Of a DNA stretch of 7,923 nt, positions 1,036 to 7,917 are shown one piece after another. Position numbers and translations under genes: made by a program. The stretch spans positions 1 to 7,923 of the forward strand of contig VGXH01000074.1 in the NCBI GenBank assembly GCA_016873405.1. Direction: 5' to 3'. This stretch comes from a bacterium. GTDB lineage: Bacteria > Krumholzibacteriota > Krumholzibacteria > LZORAL124-64-63. Below the pieces are notes generated by a model, which saw only the letters and a program-made list of their open reading frames with translations, was not told the origin of the DNA and made no database searches. Numbering within the stretch: the stretch's first letter is position 1; each line of letters begins with the position of its first letter.

Positions 1036-1785
1036 TTGGCAGCCGAGCGGGATGTTCTCAGCGCGCGCGAGCGCTACGAGTGCGTGGAACCCGCGCTCGG
1101 CGCCGAGCTCTGGCGGCGCGACCTGCCCGCGTGTGAACCGGCGCTGGCGGCCCGACTGGATCGGCACCTCGATGTCTGCGACGCCTGCCGGCTTGAACGG
1201 GTCGTGCAGGCGGTGCTTGCGGAGGGCCTGCTGACCGAAGCGCTCGGGGCGGCGCGCCCACCGGCGGCGGCCCGGCGTCCGGGGCCGATCGCCACCGGCG
1301 GCTGGGTGGCGCTGGCGGCTTCGCTGGCGCTGGCGGTTCTGGTGCCGCCCGGGGCGCTCCGCCCGGAAACGACGCGCAGCGGCGCGCCGGTGGGCGGTTT
1401 CCTGCGGCCGGTCGAAGGTGAAGTCGTGGCCGACACCCCGCATCTGCAATGGCGACCGGTGCCGGGAGCGACCGCCTACGAAGTGACCCTCGACCGGATT
1501 GGCGGCGACTTCCGCTGGACGGCCCGCGCCGACGCCAGCCGTCTGGTTCCGACGGACGCGCAGGCGGTGCCCGGCCCCGGACGCTACCGGGTGATCGTGC
1601 GCGCCATTCCCGACGATCTGACGCCACCGGAGGGACTGAGCGTGACCTTCGAGCGCGGCAGCGTCGGCAAACAGATCTCGTATCGGCTCCGTGCCGCCCC
1701 GTGGCCCCTCCACCTGCTCGGTTTGGCCGGGCTGGCGGCGGGACTGTCGGGTCTGGTCCGGCGTCGCACGCAACGGGCGTTCTGA
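1036..1785 (+). CDS. Membrane anti-sigma-like protein: zf-HC2 zinc finger, TM, FN3-like extracytoplasmic domain, second TM
   Basis: Predicted 249-residue protein starting at TTG. The cytoplasmic N-terminus has the zinc-binding anti-sigma signature HLDVCDAC (His44, Cys48, Cys51), with Cys16 or Cys33 as the likely fourth ligand. A hydrophobic segment at about 89-106 is the first transmembrane helix. Residues 120-206 form a beta-rich domain with the pattern PHLQWRPVPGATAYEVTLDR, typical of FN3-like modules. A second hydrophobic helix (about 223-241) is followed by RRRTQR, which fits a cytoplasmic C-terminus. Proteins of this family hold an ECF sigma factor at the membrane until a signal releases it. 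The only sigma gene in the window is about 4 kb away at 5924, so partnership is inferred. The ZU5-like lipoprotein follows after 14 bases, so the two are an operon. Alternative: a zinc-finger membrane sensor that is not an anti-sigma factor. Confidence 0.82.
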   Translation: MAAERDVLSARERYECVEPALGAELWRRDLPACEPALAARLDRHLDVCDACRLERVVQAVLAEGLLTEALGAARPPAAARRPGPIATGGWVALAASLALAVLVPPGALRPETTRSGAPVGGFLRPVEGEVVADTPHLQWRPVPGATAYEVTLDRIGGDFRWTARADASRLVPTDAQAVPGPGRYRVIVRAIPDDLTPPEGLSVTFERGSVGKQISYRLRAAPWPLHLLGLAGLAAGLSGLVRRRTQRAF

Positions 1786-1799
1786 CCCGGAGGCAGTCC

Positions 1800-2597
1800 A
1801 TGCGCTACCACACCATCAGCCAGAACATCCGCGGACGCGTCGCGCACAGCTTCATCCCGCTGATCGTGCTCCTGGCGTTGGCGCCCGGTTGTGGGGGCCA
1901 CCGCGACGGAGCGGCGACGCCGCTGCGGGCCGACCTCGAGTCAGCCCTGCCGGCGCTGACGCCGTCCAGCCCCGCCGAGCGGCAGTGGCAGAAGCTGTTG
2001 GCCAGACTCTGGGCCCGGAGCGACCACGACGATTGGGATGTCATCTCCGGCTGGATCGACCCCGCCACGGGCGGCGTCGTGTCAGGCGTGCCGGACAGTT
2101 GGCCCGACGCCTTCGAGTTCGCGATCAGCATCCCGCCCGGAGCGATCGAACCGCGCGGCTTGGGCGTCAGGGAGCCACCGGTCGACCCGGACCCCTTGAT
2201 GGAGATTGCGATCCTCGTGCCCCGCTACGATCCCGACCTGCCGCCCAAGCAGCAGCATGTCGCCGTATACCAGATGCTGCCGCACGGCCTGCAGTTCAAC
2301 ACTCCAGCCACGGTCACCTTCTGTTATCCGCCTTGGCGCAATCCGTGCGAGAGCTACGCGAAGTTCTATTTCTGGCGCGAGAACGAGGACGGGGATTGGG
2401 TTTACTACCTGTCGGATTTCGAGATCCTCGTGCCGACGCCCGGCGGCGATCCGCGGGTCGGACTGCAGTTCACGACGACGCATTTCTCGCGTTGGGGCAT
2501 GCAGAACGGCGCCGGCGGCGAGGGTATCGTGGACCCGGACAGCTTGGACGTGCCGCCGCCGCCGCTGCCCCAGGTGCAGCCACACGGCGGCAACTGA
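1800..2597 (+). CDS. ZU5-like domain lipoprotein
   Basis: Predicted 265-residue exported lipoprotein. The ATG at 1800 has GGAGG six bases upstream. The N-terminus has arginines 11 and 13, a hydrophobic core (FIPLIVLLALA) and a lipobox-like LAPGC with Cys31 as lipidation site. Residues about 90-234 follow the ZU5-like pattern of bacterial surface proteins: GGVVSG, then the strand AISIPPGAI (108-116), then VYQMLPHGLQFNTPATVTFCY (156-176, the usual 'GL.F..P.tv.. Y' segment), an acidic DGDWVYY stretch and a final TTTHFSRWGM (225-234). HFS at 228-230 matches the self-cleavage tripeptide of animal ZU5 proteins such as PIDD; whether it cleaves here is unknown. The C-terminus is a Pro-rich tail. It is co-transcribed with the anti-sigma-like gene and converges with the CHAT gene. 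The domain call rests on pattern recognition by eye. Confidence 0.78.
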   Translation: MRYHTISQNIRGRVAHSFIPLIVLLALAPGCGGHRDGAATPLRADLESALPALTPSSPAERQWQKLLARLWARSDHDDWDVISGWIDPATGGVVSGVPDSWPDAFEFAISIPPGAIEPRGLGVREPPVDPDPLMEIAILVPRYDPDLPPKQQHVAVYQMLPHGLQFNTPATVTFCYPPWRNPCESYAKFYFWRENEDGDWVYYLSDFEILVPTPGGDPRVGLQFTTTHFSRWGMQNGAGGEGIVDPDSLDVPPPPLPQVQPHGGN

Positions 2598-2604
2598 CTC
2601 CGGG

Positions 2605-5600
2605 CTAGCGAGCGGATTCGATCAGGCGGAAGAAGGCCCAGTAGTACGGATGACGCGTGCGTTCGCTTTGCGCGCGCACGCGCTGCTGCGCAGCCCGCAA
2701 GGCGGCAGCCGGATCGGTCCCGCGCGCGAACTCCTCATAGAACGCCAGCGCCAGATCGCGCGCCGTCCGATCGTCCACGCGCATGGACGACGCGATCACG
2801 CGCCGTGCGCCCGCCGCCAGGAAGGCGCCCGCCAAGTCCGCCGAACCGGCGCCGACGTGTCGTCGCCGCGTGCCATCGCAACAGGAGAGGAACACGAGGT
2901 CGGCCAGCAGCGGCGTGGACGCGATCATCGGCAGCGTGGGGGAGTCGCCGGGAGCATCGCCGGCCAGCTGCAACACGGCGCCGCCGCCGCTGACGACGGC
3001 ATGCGTCGCGAAATGGATGACCGCGGCGCGCTCGAGGCCGGCTGTCCGCAGCCCGGGCCACGAGGCCTCGTCGCCGAGGCACGCTCGCGCCGGCCCGCCG
3101 CGCCAGGCCGCCGCCACGGCGCGCGCCTCGTCCTCGGCGTGATGCAGCGGCGCCAGTTCTTCGGGCAGGCCGGCCGCGCCGTTGACTCCGGCCGCCAGCA
3201 GCAGGCCGCCACCGGTACCGGCGTCGCGGCCGCGAACGACGGGATCCGCCGCCGCAGACCTCAGCTGCAGTTCGACCACCGGGCCCAGTTCGAGCAGCGC
3301 CGGACCGGCGGCCTCCGTCATGAGCGCGGCCCAAGGAAGGCCCTGCAGGATGTCGTCGGCCAGGACGTGGAGCGGCGCGTCCGCCGGCCAGCCGTCCAGC
3401 GCCGTGCCCAGCACCGCGCGGGCGAGGCGCGCCGCGGCCGTGAAGTCCGGTTCGCGGCGCGGCGTCGCCGCGTCCGCCAGCACCGGCGCCGCCAGCCGCA
3501 GCAACTCCGGCCGCGCGGGCAGATCGTACCGCTCCGTGCGATGTGCATCGACATACCAGGCGTGCGCGCGGGTCTCGCCGACGAGCGTGATGACCAGACG
3601 GGCGCCGGCGGGCTGCGCCGCCAGCCAATCGCGCGGTCGGAACCCGACGGTGGCGGCGAACGGATCGCCCGCGCCGAGAAAGGCGAGCGCGTGCGCAAGA
3701 GCGCCCTCGTCGTCGCCGACCGCGGCGCGCGCGGCCGCGGCTTCCAGGGCGATGTCGCGGCGCAGATGCTCGGTGAAGATCGCGAACTCGCGCGTGGGGG
3801 CGCCTTCGGTGCGCGCCAGCTCCGTCGCCGCGCTCCGCAGCGCGCGCGCGCCGCGGTCCGCCGCGCCGGTCGTGCGCAGGGCTCGCGCCTGTTCGAAACG
3901 CAGCCGCGCCGTCAGGTCGGCCGGCGTGTACGGCGTGATCAGCGAATCGGCGCGCGCCAGCGGCGCCAGGGCGCGCGCGGCGCGCCCCTCCTCGTTGTGT
4001 GCACGCCCAAGAAATACCAACGTCGACAGGCGCGTGCGGAAACCCGACCCGAAGCGGCCGTCGTCGGCTGTCGCGGCGAACAGATCGCGAGCGGATTGCC
4101 ACTGCCCCAGCTCGAGGAGGCAGTGTCCCAAGTGGAAGCGGCTGGAGGCGCGCTGGTCCGGGGACCCCTCGGCCTCGGCAGCGGCCAGCGAGGAGCGGAA
4201 GGCGGTGGCGGCCGCCGTCAGATCGCCGCGCCGCTGGGCCAGCTTGCCGGTGACGAGGTGGTAAAGCCAGAGCTTGCCCTCGCCCCCCCGCCGCCCGACC
4301 GCGACACCCGCGCGGGCCAGGGCTTCGGCGGCGGCTTCGTACTCGCCCTGGCCCAGATGGTATTCGGCGGTAGCCGTTTCGTAGTCGGCAACCAGGTTCT
4401 GGTCTGGCGTCGCGTCGTGCAGCGCGGCGCGCAGATGCTGCAGGCGCGCCACAGAGCGCAACGCCAGTTCGGGGCGACCCAGTTCCAGCTGTTGGCGGAT
4501 GAGTCCGATATGCAGGCGCGCCTCGTCCGCGGCGAGGCTGGCGCCCGGCGCCCGCTGGCTTGCCCGAGTCAGGAGCTCGGTCACCTTGGCGTAGTTCCCA
4601 ATCTGGCAGTAGTACTCGGCCTCGAGCAACGGCAGCATGGCCTGGTTGCGCGCGTCGTCGTAGGCTTGGACCCAGACGCGGGCGCGCTCCTGGTAGACCA
4701 GACACGAATCGAGCCGGCCGATGAGCCGCATGTCATTCGCCAGGTTCATCAGGTTGCGCGGGACGTTCAGTGAGTCCGCCATGGCGAGGCTGTGCGCGAG
4801 GGTGCGGCGATCGAACTCCAGCGCCAGGTCGGGCCGGCCGAGCGCTCCGGCCAGCGCGGCCGCCTTGTCGGTGGCGTCCAGAAACAGCCAGGGGAGATCG
4901 TGCGCCTGTGCATAATCCGACGCCCGGCGCAGCAGCGCCAGCGCCGCCGCGGATTCGCGGCGCTCCTGACGGAGCGAAGCCGCGAGCACGAGATAGCGGC
5001 CGCGCCAGGACGAGCTGCCCAGCGCGTCGGCCAGGCGCGCGCCGGCCGCCGCCGCGTGCAGGGCGTCATCCAGACGATCGGCGCGCAACAGGTAGCGCGC
5101 GACGTGATACCACTCGCGGACCGCCAGCCGCGGGCCCACCGGTTCGCTGGGCGCGAGTAAGGCCAGTAGCCGTTGGACGGCTACCAGCGGCGCGCCGCCA
5201 TCGGCTTCGACCATCGCGAGCTTCTGCTCGGCCAGCGCCCGGTCCAGCCGGCTCAATGCGGCGGAGAGCGCCGCGGCACGGCGGTAGCCGGCGCCACGCG
5301 AGCCGTAACCGTACTCGCGGCAGTCCTGCGCGAACCAATAGGCCGCCGGCGTCCGCACGCTGTCCACCCGCGCCGCCAGGTCGGCCGCCAACTCCTCGCC
5401 GCGGTGCAGTAGGTACTCGTAGCGGGTGGCGGCCTCGAGCCAAAGCAGACTGGCAGGTTCTGCGCGCCACAGCGCGTAGAGACGATCGCCAGACCCGCTC
5501 CGCGTGGCGGGCCGCTGGATCGCGATCTCCAGGCTGTCGAACAGGGCCAACCGGCGCTCGCCCGCGGTATCGAGGACAGCAACGGCTCCAGTGCCGGCGC

Positions 5601-5790
5601 GAAGGTGTTGGGCCAGCTCGTCGGAACACGGAACGCCGGTCAGATCGATCGCGGTCGTCACGTTCGCGGGGTCGGCGATGGTGCCGGCGGGCGACGTGGT
5701 TCGGCGGCCGCACGCGCCGGCCGCAAGCGCCAGCGCCAGCGCCAGTGCAACGGGCAGCGAGAGGGAATCCGGGCGAGGAAGGCCGGCCAC
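2605..5790 (-). CDS. TPR-repeat lipoprotein with C-terminal CHAT (caspase-like) protease domain
   Basis: Predicted 1061 residues from GTG at 5790. This start has GGAG six bases upstream and gives a compact signal peptide (Arg, then ALALALAAGAC) with Cys27 as a weak-consensus lipobox cysteine. An in-frame ATG at 5862 would add 24 residues, but has no good ribosome site, gives an overlong n-region and overlaps the sigma promoter. Residues about 176-670 are helical TPR-type repeats, clearest at 507-540 (WLYHLVTGKLAQRRGDLTAA), 547-578 and 585-617. Residues about 731-1061 are a CHAT domain: HVLADDILQGLPWAALM, the His motif VIHFATHAVV (His930), the Cys motif LVFLSCCDG (Cys971, family form LSAC[ED]T), then GAFLAAGARRVI, Fy..f..G and the closing HPYYWAFFRL. 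CHAT proteins are clan CD peptidases related to caspases and separase, so both catalytic residues being present suggests an active protease; TPRs would recognise the partner or substrate. It is divergent from the sigma gene and convergent with the ZU5-like lipoprotein gene. Confidence 0.88.
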   Translation of the reverse strand: MAGLPRPDSLSLPVALALALALAAGACGRRTTSPAGTIADPANVTTAIDLTGVPCSDELAQHLRAGTGAVAVLDTAGERRLALFDSLEIAIQRPATRSGSGDRLYALWRAEPASLLWLEAATRYEYLLHRGEELAADLAARVDSVRTPAAYWFAQDCREYGYGSRGAGYRRAAALSAALSRLDRALAEQKLAMVEADGGAPLVAVQRLLALLAPSEPVGPRLAVREWYHVARYLLRADRLDDALHAAAAGARLADALGSSSWRGRYLVLAASLRQERRESAAALALLRRASDYAQAHDLPWLFLDATDKAAALAGALGRPDLALEFDRRTLAHSLAMADSLNVPRNLMNLANDMRLIGRLDSCLVYQERARVWVQAYDDARNQAMLPLLEAEYYCQIGNYAKVTELLTRASQRAPGASLAADEARLHIGLIRQQLELGRPELALRSVARLQHLRAALHDATPDQNLVADYETATAEYHLGQGEYEAAAEALARAGVAVGRRGGEGKLWLYHLVTGKLAQRRGDLTAAATAFRSSLAAAEAEGSPDQRASSRFHLGHCLLELGQWQSARDLFAATADDGRFGSGFRTRLSTLVFLGRAHNEEGRAARALAPLARADSLITPYTPADLTARLRFEQARALRTTGAADRGARALRSAATELARTEGAPTREFAIFTEHLRRDIALEAAAARAAVGDDEGALAHALAFLGAGDPFAATVGFRPRDWLAAQPAGARLVITLVGETRAHAWYVDAHRTERYDLPARPELLRLAAPVLADAATPRREPDFTAAARLARAVLGTALDGWPADAPLHVLADDILQGLPWAALMTEAAGPALLELGPVVELQLRSAAADPVVRGRDAGTGGGLLLAAGVNGAAGLPEELAPLHHAEDEARAVAAAWRGGPARACLGDEASWPGLRTAGLERAAVIHFATHAVVSGGGAVLQLAGDAPGDSPTLPMIASTPLLADLVFLSCCDGTRRRHVGAGSADLAGAFLAAGARRVIASSMRVDDRTARDLALAFYEEFARGTDPAAALRAAQQRVRAQSERTRHPYYWAFFRLIESAR

Positions 5791-5796
5791 GGCACG

Positions 5797-5800
5797 CTCC
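5797..5800 (-). promoter_or_regulatory. Ribosome binding site supporting the GTG start of the CHAT gene
   Basis: On the minus strand GGAG (plus-strand CTCC at 5797-5800) lies six bases before GTG at 5790. The upstream ATG at 5862 has only a weak GGCGG directly against the start codon. This and the signal-peptide geometry favour the GTG. Confidence 0.55.
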
Positions 5801-5833
5801 GACCTGGCGACGACCACCGGTGCGCCGTTGAGA

Positions 5834-5862
5834 TGGACACCCGAGCCAACGTCCCGTATCAT
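5834..5862 (+). promoter_or_regulatory. Candidate sigma70-type promoter of the sigma-factor gene
   Basis: TGGACA at 5834-5839 (5 of 6 to TTGACA) and TATCAT at 5857-5862 (5 of 6 to TATAAT) are separated by exactly 17 bases. Transcription would start near 5869, giving a leader of about 55 bases before ATG 5924. It is the best promoter match found in the window, in an otherwise very GC-rich region. Confidence 0.6.
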
Positions 5863-5877
5863 CCGCCAGGACGCCGG

Positions 5878-5896
5878 CGACGGGAGTTTCCCGTCG
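5878..5896. repeat. Perfect 8-bp inverted repeat in the sigma/CHAT divergent region
   Basis: CGACGGGA (5878-5885), spacer GTT, TCCCGTCG (5889-5896) is a perfect palindrome with a 3-base centre. It sits just downstream of the predicted sigma transcription start and 27 bases before the ATG. It could be an operator for a dimeric regulator or an mRNA hairpin that controls translation of the sigma factor, which lacks a clear Shine-Dalgarno. The repeat is directly visible; the role is inferred. Confidence 0.65.
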
Positions 5897-5923
5897 AGCT
5901 CTCATCTTACCCGCTGGACCACG

Positions 5924-6508
5924 ATGAATCAACCCACCGGCCGCCACACGGGCGACGCCGCCGCCATCGCCGCCATCATCGCCGGTGTCGCGGCCGGAGA
6001 CCACGATGCCGACGTGGCGTTGCACGCGCTGCTGCGCTCGCCGGTGATCGCGGCGGTGCGCGGGTTTCTGGGCGCGGACGATCTCGAGACGGATGATATC
6101 GCGCAGGACACGATGCTGGTGGCTTATCGCTATATCCGCGATGGCGGAGGATTCACCGGCGACATCGTCGCTCTTGCCGTCACCGTCGCGCGCAACCGCT
6201 GCCGCAGCGTGCTGGCCCGTCGCCGCCGCCGCCGGCACGTTCCACTCGAAGACGCGCAGGATCGCGTGCCGGATCCGCGCGCTGGTCCGGCCGAATCGTT
6301 GCTGTCGGCCGATGCTCTGGCGACGCTGCGCGAGGGCATCGCGCGCCTGGGCACCCGGTGTCGCGCGCTGCTGTGGGCGTTCTACGTCGACGAGAAGCCG
6401 ATGGAGGAGATACGGGCGCTGTCCGGGCTCAAGACGGTGCAGGGCGTCTATTATCGCCGGCAGGTGTGCCTGCGCGAACTGGCGGGCATGCTGGCGGGAC
6501 GCCTGTAG
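5924..6508 (+). CDS. Sigma-70 family (ECF-type) RNA polymerase sigma factor
   Basis: Predicted 194 residues from ATG, ending in TAG. Region 2 spans about 32-104 with the core-binding/-10 signature DDIAQDTMLVAYRYI (57-71) and the helix VARNRCRSVLARRRRRRH, which includes six consecutive arginines (99-104). After a short acidic linker, region 4 (about 132-190) has LGTRCRALLWAFYVDEKPME, then the helix-turn-helix that reads the -35 element (EEIRALSGLKTVQGVYYRR). There are no region 1 or 3 domains, which fits the ECF (group 4) class, and the length is normal. The ATG lacks a clear Shine-Dalgarno, and residues 1-31 are an Ala-rich lead-in, so a slightly later start is conceivable. It is divergent from the CHAT gene, with a promoter and an inverted repeat between them. 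No anti-sigma gene is adjacent; the nearest candidate is the zf-HC2 gene at 1036. Confidence 0.9.
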   Translation: MNQPTGRHTGDAAAIAAIIAGVAAGDHDADVALHALLRSPVIAAVRGFLGADDLETDDIAQDTMLVAYRYIRDGGGFTGDIVALAVTVARNRCRSVLARRRRRRHVPLEDAQDRVPDPRAGPAESLLSADALATLREGIARLGTRCRALLWAFYVDEKPMEEIRALSGLKTVQGVYYRRQVCLRELAGMLAGRL

Positions 6509-6891: not shown

Positions 6892-7917
6892 ATGGCGCCC
6901 ATCACTCCGCTCATGGCCCTGCTTGCGATCTGTGCCTCCTTGGCCGCCGCCGCGGTTCCTGCCCGGGCCGATGTCGCCACTCTCGCCGGCTGGCTCTCCG
7001 GCCACTTCTCCAGCGCCGCGCAGGCCGCCGCCGACACGAACTACTTCGACATCCGCCTGCGCATGGCGCCCATGTGGGGCGACCGCGCCGACGGGCCCTG
7101 GCTCTACGTCGAGCAGGCCACCGCCGCGGCGCAGGACCGGCCGTACCGCCAGCGCGTGTACCGGCTGCGGGACGGCGGCGACGGCGCGTTCATCAGCGAG
7201 GTCTACGCGCTGCCCGGCCCGCGCCGCTTCGCCGGGGCGTGGCGGCACCGGCAGCCGCTCGCGTCACTGACGCCCGACTCGCTGCTCGCGCGCGAAGGCT
7301 GCGCGGTGGTGCTGCGTCGCGCGCCGGACGGCCGCTTCGCCGGCGGCACCGAGGGCCAGGCCTGCGCCAGCGACCTGCGCGGGGCGGCGTACGCCACCTC
7401 CGAGGTCACGGTGGGCCCCGACATGATCGTGAGCTGGGACCGCGGCTTCGCGGCCGACGGCTCGCAGGCCTGGGGCGCCACCGCCGGCGGCTATGTCTTC
7501 GTGCGCGAACCGGCCGACGCGCCGTGGCCCCTCATCGCCCGCGCCGCGTGGCTGGCCGGCACCTGGGAGATGGGCGAAGCCGGCGACCTCACCGAAGAGC
7601 ACTGGCTGCCCCCGCGCGGCGATTCCATGCTGGCGGTCAGCCGCACCGTCAGCGCCGGCCGCCTGGCCTGGTTCGAGACGGTGGTGCTTCGCGAGACAGG
7701 CGACGGGCTGGTCTTCGAGGCGCACCCGGCGGGGCAGCCGGGCGGCTCGTTCCCGGCCGTGACGGTGACGGACTCGCTGCTCGTGTTCGAGAACCCGGCG
7801 CACGATTTCCCGCAGAGGATCGGGTATCGGCGGACGGACGACGGCGGCCTCGAGGCGTGGATCGAGGGCGGGGGGAAGCGGGTGGAGTTTCCGTATCGGG
7901 CTGGGGGTGGGCGGTGA
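6892..7917 (+). CDS. Secreted fusion of a CpcT/CpeT-like domain and a DUF6265-like domain
   Basis: Predicted 341 residues; ATG is preceded by GAGGAG (6881-6886) five bases upstream. Residues 1-26 form a signal peptide with probable cleavage at ARA|D. Residues about 30-204 match the CpcT/CpeT family: LAGWLSGHFSSAAQ, MAPMWGDRADGPWLYVEQA, YRQRVYRL, the cysteine pair GCAVVLRR (137) and GQACASD (158), then DRGFAADGSQAWGATAGGYVF. In cyanobacteria this fold attaches phycobilins to phycobiliproteins, but many non-photosynthetic bacteria carry exported relatives of unknown role; no phycobiliprotein gene is seen here, so lyase activity should not be assumed. Residues about 218-336 match DUF6265: WLAGTWEM, TEEHWLPPRGDSMLAVSRTV and FENPAHDFPQRIGYRR (299-314), probably a lipocalin-like beta barrel. 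Two beta-barrel-like domains in one exported protein suggest binding of a small hydrophobic ligand; this is inference. Confidence 0.85.
   Translation: MAPITPLMALLAICASLAAAAVPARADVATLAGWLSGHFSSAAQAAADTNYFDIRLRMAPMWGDRADGPWLYVEQATAAAQDRPYRQRVYRLRDGGDGAFISEVYALPGPRRFAGAWRHRQPLASLTPDSLLAREGCAVVLRRAPDGRFAGGTEGQACASDLRGAAYATSEVTVGPDMIVSWDRGFAADGSQAWGATAGGYVFVREPADAPWPLIARAAWLAGTWEMGEAGDLTEEHWLPPRGDSMLAVSRTVSAGRLAWFETVVLRETGDGLVFEAHPAGQPGGSFPAVTVTDSLLVFENPAHDFPQRIGYRRTDDGGLEAWIEGGGKRVEFPYRAGGGR

Follow-up and report, generated by a model that had tools for sequence, protein, structure and literature searches.

Do four genes that lie together on a short Krumholzibacteriota contig, encoding an extracytoplasmic function (ECF) sigma factor, a zf-HC2 anti-sigma-like membrane protein, a lipoprotein with a ZU5-like fold and a lipoprotein joining a caspase-like CHAT domain to a TPR region, belong to one system, and what might such a system do? 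The window, by which we mean the whole 7,923-nucleotide (7.9-kb) stretch of contig VGXH01000074.1 analysed here, carries six likely genes, four of which make up the module under study: the zf-HC2 (ZAS-type) gene (1036..1785, +; 249 aa from a TTG start preceded by an AAGGAG ribosome site; assigned by profile match, alignment and AlphaFold model), the ZU5-like lipoprotein gene (1800..2597, +; 265 aa, lipobox Cys31; model comparison and alignment of relatives), the CHAT-TPR lipoprotein gene (2605..5790, -; Pfam and alignment) and the ECF-type sigma gene (5924..6508, +; 194 aa; family profile matches). A first-pass annotation made from the sequence had proposed these four identities at these coordinates, and profiles, the fold model and alignments confirm both. 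Because the CHAT gene is convergent with the ZU5 gene and divergent from the sigma gene, the four do not form a single operon, and 4.1 kb, occupied by ZU5 and CHAT, separates the sigma gene from zf-HC2. The module, carried by a little-studied bacterial group, seems to couple a caspase-like protease and a ZU5 protein that probably cuts itself, both in the cell envelope, to a gene switch held at the membrane; elsewhere this pairing is best known from the cell-death machinery of animals.

The four genes recur together in relatives. We sampled 80 genomes of one phylum, including a Candidatus Krumholzibacteriota genome (G003, locus L004), and counted as strong those zf-HC2 matches scoring 124 bits or more (25 of 44 listed) and those ZU5 matches of at least 31 bits (19 of 28), together with 25 sigma matches at E <= 1e-15 and 32 CHAT matches at that family's own E limit; CHAT scoring covered at most nine candidates per genome, except in G053, where all 53 were scored. 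Loci L008-L011 were left out of the counts, three of them repeating other loci and L009 being a short piece of L056. An initial contig scan with the zf-HC2 alignment returned seven loci, with CHAT-TPR adjoining in all seven and sigma in six, the seventh contig ending inside CHAT. Within 6 kb of the 25 strong zf-HC2 genes lie a sigma gene in 21 cases, a CHAT-TPR gene in 20 and a ZU5-like gene in 14, and for 19 of the 21 the sigma gene is directly adjacent on the same strand. Viewed in reverse, ZU5 stands beside CHAT in 17/19 matches, sigma beside zf-HC2 in 21/25 and CHAT beside zf-HC2 in 20/32; some of the misses are contig ends or sub-threshold fragments that are still visible (CHAT in L019 and L023, sigma in L029). 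Most often the genes stand in the order ZU5> <CHAT sigma> zf-HC2> (as in L001-L003, L013, L014 and L016), whereas that of the window, zf-HC2> ZU5> <CHAT sigma>, with zf-HC2 on the far side, recurs in L006, L007 and L024; further orders occur, as in L021 and L028. Two or three strong zf-HC2 copies are present in each of G002, G003, G006, G015 and G071. The expectation that the gene set would be conserved beyond close relatives is borne out, with identities to the window proteins of 32-40% for sigma, 33-43% for CHAT and 19-56% for ZU5.

The divergence of the partners is also correlated. Mirror-tree correlations are 0.80 for sigma-CHAT (n=20), 0.80 for zf-CHAT (n=20), 0.70 for sigma-zf (n=25), 0.53 for CHAT-ZU5 (n=13), 0.42 for zf-ZU5 (n=15) and 0.31 for sigma-ZU5 (n=13), with permutation p values of 0.0005 to 0.011 across the six pairs. 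That four unrelated genes are neighbours by chance might be entertained on the ground that zf-HC2 genes (80/80 genomes) and CHAT proteins (66/80) are both frequent in the phylum, but the repetition of the linkage in two main orders, the several copies per genome and the correlated divergence make this extremely improbable. Co-occurrence is far above chance, and the four genes are a conserved module. In the searches made it is almost confined to one phylum. As for spread across phyla, there is outside the main one a strong match in one of seven genomes of a second (G005/L006), while the single case from a third, a 4.6-kb module contig of a metagenome-assembled genome titled Coriobacteriaceae (L005, PNNM01000095.1; G004; one of 100 genomes sampled), is probably misbinned, so that broad spread is unsupported. 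No relatives of the zf-HC2 protein were found in viral contigs, and a plasmid search with CHAT at E 1e-10 was likewise empty.

What, then, are the two proteins of the switch? The window copy of zf-HC2 taken alone falls under the Pfam cut-off (14.9 versus 22.2 bits), and zf-HC2 matches at E <= 1 are obtained for 11 of 13 aligned members. All 13 share the zinc-binding ZAS pattern C16-x27-H-x3-C-x2-C (1081..1188, +; C16 at 1081-1083, H44 at 1165-1167, C48 at 1177-1179 and C51 at 1186-1188), each column of which is kept in 32/33 sequences of a wider alignment; in the single miss, L031, HMAECKDC lies beyond the part that was matched. The notion that L031 lacks both zinc motif and sigma was rejected, as its frames show HxxxCxxC and an adjoining sigma-like frame. 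One transmembrane helix is clear (TM1; residues 85-103, 1288..1344, +; hydropathy 2.1; AlphaFold helix 84-102), followed by an FN3-like domain, predicted to be extracytoplasmic (residues 117-209, 1384..1662, +), and by a predicted C-terminal helix (AlphaFold, 223-248) of hydropathy below 1.5 throughout, where membrane topology is tentative. By its motifs and its single clear transmembrane helix the protein is anti-sigma-like, of ZAS type, with FN3 as its outer domain, and it presumably binds the sigma factor. The window sigma alone likewise lies under the Pfam and NCBIfam cut-offs; a seven-member family profile (A4) matches, over most of their length and at E 3e-8 to 8e-4, the PDB entries 6in7 (labelled sigma-H, which we take to be AlgU), 1or7 and 2q1z (both RpoE) and 5wuq (SigW), and the protein consists of sigma2 and sigma4 regions only.

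In the RseA-RpoE and RsiW-SigW systems the anti-sigma is cut stepwise, and DegS and PrsW, the known site-1 proteases, are not known to be caspase-like. The module resembles these systems (both named in PMC10028731) in that an ECF sigma would be held by a membrane anti-sigma subject to stepwise cleavage, and differs from them in that a CHAT gene belongs to the module. The CHAT domain (2623..3426, -) scores 119.6 bits in Pfam, where the cut-off is 24, and looks intact, with the catalytic His and Cys at codons 3001-3003 and 2878-2880. These residues and the lipobox Cys are invariant in 6/6 aligned proteins, and among the 25 members listed, one of which (L015) is cut before the Cys, the remaining 24 all have LS[SC]C and 23 the His motif. 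The TPR region is matched at 3820..4389 (-) by TPR_MalT (22.5 bits), with TPR_12 at 25.8 bits, both under their cut-offs; against the PDB, the recognised matches of the CHAT profile cover TPRs only, in the N-terminal part, and the single window protein has none.

The closest known parallel is the CASP/Craspase system of type III-E CRISPR, in which the TPR-CHAT protease Csx29 cuts Csx30, an inhibitor of an ECF sigma (PMC10028731). Here as there, a TPR-CHAT protein is tied to an ECF sigma through a sigma inhibitor, and proteolysis relieves inhibition in CASP; the precedent supports, as a principle, the relief of ECF sigma inhibition by a TPR-CHAT protease. In CASP, however, Csx29 sits in a complex with Cas7-11 and is activated by target RNA (PMC10028731), whereas the CHAT protein of the module has a lipoprotein signal, the inhibitor-like protein is a membrane ZAS protein with FN3, and a ZU5 lipoprotein is added. 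Among the six proteins of the window (7.9 kb only), Pfam and PADLOC gave no match to Cas7-11, Csx30, Csx31 or other cas genes, and PADLOC gave no match of any kind. EACC2-caspase neighbourhoods also bring together a caspase-fold protease, a TPR protein (DUF1822) and an ECF sigma (PMC8195603); the protein families are different ones, and the available part of that paper does not mention ZU5 or zf-HC2.

Where might such a protease cut? Arg114 of the zf-HC2 protein (1375..1377, +), in the linker between TM1 and FN3, is conserved in 30/33 sequences amid variable positions; the next residue is G, S, A or N in 31/33, mostly Gly or Ser, and AlphaFold gives linker residues 112-116 a pLDDT below 50. 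Arg114 is thus a candidate cleavage site. The earlier suggestion that CHAT might act on the anti-sigma's outer region gains from this, since the near-invariant Arg lies in an exposed, disordered linker just outside TM1. Its only clear loss is in L022 (1636-2985, -), where sigma and zf-HC2 form one 449-aa frame and no module-type CHAT adjoins; scoring of all 53 candidates of that genome (G053, 5.7 Mb) turned up nothing beyond weaker CHAT relatives, the best at 166.8 bits over positions 638-1055. An Arg after TM1 is also visible by eye in distant zf-HC2 proteins, a post hoc observation that was not counted.

CHAT and ZU5 might instead be outputs: the regulon of an ordinary envelope-stress sigma/anti-sigma pair would take in the exported protease and the ZU5 lipoprotein, which would act on other targets, in envelope remodelling, defence or self-lysis. 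The first-pass annotation had likewise placed both genes under possible sigma control. The convergent and divergent gene order is compatible with separate control, and the CHAT proteins of the phylum, among the matches listed, stand mostly outside the module. Ahead of sigma lies a promoter-like element, TGGACA-N17-TATCAT (5834..5862, +), of the pattern TRGACA-N17-TAnnnT, which has 17 occurrences in the 510 kb of loci analysed, all 17 ahead of a module sigma (17/27 sigma genes) and none ahead of CHAT, zf-HC2 or ZU5, one two-box pattern having been tested; TGGACA-TAnnnT with spacers of 15, 16 or 18 occurs seven times. The pattern was chosen after viewing the sequences, so these counts are post hoc. 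A stricter form, TRGACA-N17-TATCRT, is found at 91 places in 53/80 genomes as against 25 for a reversed control; promoters of module sigma genes account for six of the 91, and many others lie in genomes without the module. In four genomes, two of them without a strong module match (G050 and G061), TGGACA-N17-TATCAT precedes genes for secreted proteins of ~430-600 aa (L046-L049). As the same type of element occurs where there is no strong module match, the idea that the sigma factor drives its own promoter was dropped, and the element is probably a general sigma70-type promoter of this phylum; control of CHAT and ZU5 by the sigma factor finds no support in it. The element also bears on the CHAT start: the open frame extends to ATG 5862, which overlaps the -10 box, whereas GTG 5790 has a GGAG site and is for both reasons the likelier start. 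Against CHAT and ZU5 as outputs stand the lack of a promoter element shared with sigma, the stronger co-variation of sigma and anti-sigma with CHAT than with ZU5, and the Arg114 pattern, which fits the anti-sigma as a protease substrate; we consider this account rather unlikely.

The second lipoprotein was recognised as ZU5-type by comparison of its predicted model (beta sandwich, residues 79-236; 2034..2507, +), and we call it ZU5-like because the Pfam ZU5 profile (PF00791) matches 0/23 members. Distant relatives recovered by the family profile (P0014-P0017) match Pfam ZU5 below its cut-off in every case, with E values between 5e-4 and 0.06, and PDB searches gave nothing significant for the family and no match for the single window protein; a yeast NUP145 match that aligned HFS with HFS was set aside at E=1, the level of chance. 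Alignment A7, on which the counts rest, omits a ZU5-like protein cut at a contig end, in which no HFS is seen (L035), and the non-matching lipoprotein of L017. The lipobox Cys is present in at least 90% of the 23 proteins. His-Phe-Ser 228-230 (2481..2489, +) sits between the modelled strands 222-228 and 231-236, ahead of the last strand, and is a predicted autoproteolysis site, HF/S, kept in 21/23 relatives; the tail behind the predicted cut is ~10-60 residues long among relatives and 36 residues after Phe229 in the window protein. PIDD and Nup98 cut themselves at HFS, whereas UNC5b has Leu for Phe (PMC3210808). The module protein shares with the ZU5-UPA proteins PIDD, CARD8 and NLRP1 the ZU5 fold, an HFS (or SFS) just ahead of the last strand and the tie to a caspase (PMC3210808); it differs in its small size and lipoprotein signal, in having no UPA, Death or CARD domain that Pfam could find after ZU5, and in that its CHAT partner is separate. 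ZU5 domains predicted to cut themselves are described in bacterial exported surface proteins and polymorphic toxins, with a C-terminal CxH active site (PMC3482391), but those proteins are large, with RHS or adhesion modules, unlike the present small lipoprotein linked to a sigma switch and CHAT. Three of the distant relatives, ZU5-type proteins of other bacteria (P0014, P0016 and P0017), carry THFSDW, two of them behind a lipoprotein-like N-terminus, and are candidates for self-cleaving lipoproteins elsewhere.

Two other accounts of this protein have to be weighed. The ZU5 domains of ankyrin and ZO-1 have the same fold and are not known to be cleaved, so HFS could be structural and the lipoprotein a passive, ligand-binding subunit; two of the 23 relatives, L002 (HHS) and L031 (none), lack HFS yet belong to modules. 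H, F and S are nevertheless each kept in at least 90% of the 23 sequences, as against a mean column identity of 27%, and it is the self-cutting PIDD and Nup98 that have HFS, with Leu replacing the Phe in UNC5b (PMC3210808). We regard a non-cleaving protein as doubtful; going by its motif, the lipoprotein probably cuts itself. Alternatively, CHAT could cut the ZU5 lipoprotein, as the first-pass annotation proposed, with the fragments signalling to the FN3 domain of the anti-sigma. The placing of ZU5 beside CHAT agrees with this, as does a partial correlation of 0.51 for ZU5-CHAT given sigma against -0.28 for ZU5-sigma given CHAT, the corresponding value given zf-HC2 being only 0.26 (n=13 and no significance test in each case). 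HFS, however, is a self-cleavage motif that needs no protease, and its conservation therefore favours self-cleavage over cutting by CHAT, which we judge improbable.

We thus favour, tentatively and at a little short of an even chance, an envelope-stress switch worked by regulated proteolysis, in which the CHAT lipoprotein would serve as site-1 protease on the anti-sigma under the governance of the ZU5 lipoprotein, the cleavage, localisation and signal all being conjectural. The anti-sigma would hold the sigma factor at the membrane, and the ZU5 lipoprotein would cut itself at HF/S into two pieces that stay together, as reported for CARD8, and serve the CHAT-TPR protein as a sensor or licence. 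A signal from the envelope would cause the TPR part to release the CHAT protease, which would cut the anti-sigma after Arg114, just outside TM1, and intramembrane proteolysis would then liberate the sigma factor. A more specific version, which we think has perhaps one chance in a few, would bring the logic of a PIDDosome or inflammasome to the bacterial envelope: the self-cleaving ZU5 protein would license CHAT through release or exposure of its C-terminal strand and tail, the anti-sigma would be cut after the conserved Arg, and a death-type module would drive transcription in place of killing.

Several observations count against the proteolytic switch. Common descent of the species inflates every mirror-tree value, and ZU5 is the weakest co-evolving partner. 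There are zf-HC2/sigma pairs with no adjoining CHAT (L018, L020 and L022), though the genomes of L018 and L020 hold a CHAT of the family elsewhere, and the His pattern is missing from the CHAT protein of L029. Modules with no recognisable ZU5 exist (L021 and L027), and L017 has a profile-negative lipoprotein in its place, so ZU5 is dispensable in some modules. As for the cleavage site, the joint loss of Arg and CHAT in L022 is one case in a genome (G053) of unestablished completeness; Arg217, near the C-terminal helix, is equally conserved (32/33), so that Arg114 may serve another role; and specificity for arginine is a guess, because no Csx30 residue is essential for cutting by Csx29 (PMC10028731).

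Sets of sigma, zf-HC2 and CHAT also occur in the same searches with no ZU5 profile match. Profiles match all three in L050, L051, L052 and L056 and two of the three in L053, L054 and L055; in L041 only CHAT is matched, the other two having been recognised by eye. Several of the CHAT proteins have signal-like N-termini, and L056 lies in a second phylum. These loci (L041 and L050-L056) were chosen for a weak zf-HC2, sigma or CHAT match near CHAT and do not give a rate. They suggest that the ZU5-bearing set is one branch of a sigma/zf-HC2/CHAT class. Beside the fused sigma-anti-sigma of L022, where CHAT would be, stands a gene for a large exported tricorn-like protein (3134-6502, -), and a tricorn-like gene in L032 (2200-5496, -) is the neighbour of an unlinked CHAT gene from the module family; it is possible that a tricorn-like protease has been swapped for CHAT in the same pathway. 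Two loci, L004 (6136-6693) and L007 (10903-11454), encode between zf-HC2 and ZU5 a small secreted protein with two dockerin-like repeats, recognised by eye. The two remaining genes of the window have no counterparts in the first seven related loci examined. An open frame entering from the left end (3-830, +), with a hydrophobic C-terminus ending in Cys and Trp, has no Pfam, NCBIfam or PADLOC match at E <= 1; on the right flank (6892-7917, +) a CpeT/CpcT domain behind a signal-like N-terminus is fused to DUF6265, to our knowledge an unusual combination. A search for RNA families found none.

Our literature searches returned no published description of the four-gene module, and CHAT together with an ECF sigma and an anti-sigma only in CRISPR CASP/Craspase, most subscription papers and preprints lying outside the search. 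In animals, ZU5 autoproteolysis and proteases of the caspase family come together in proteins of cell death and the inflammasome. With ZU5 and CHAT genetically tied in a bacterial envelope beside a sigma and its anti-sigma, the module offers a simple, testable system for the control of a caspase-like enzyme by ZU5. If the proposed switch is real, the site-1 proteases by which ECF sigma factors are set free would come to include caspase-like enzymes, and the prediction names a specific cut site.

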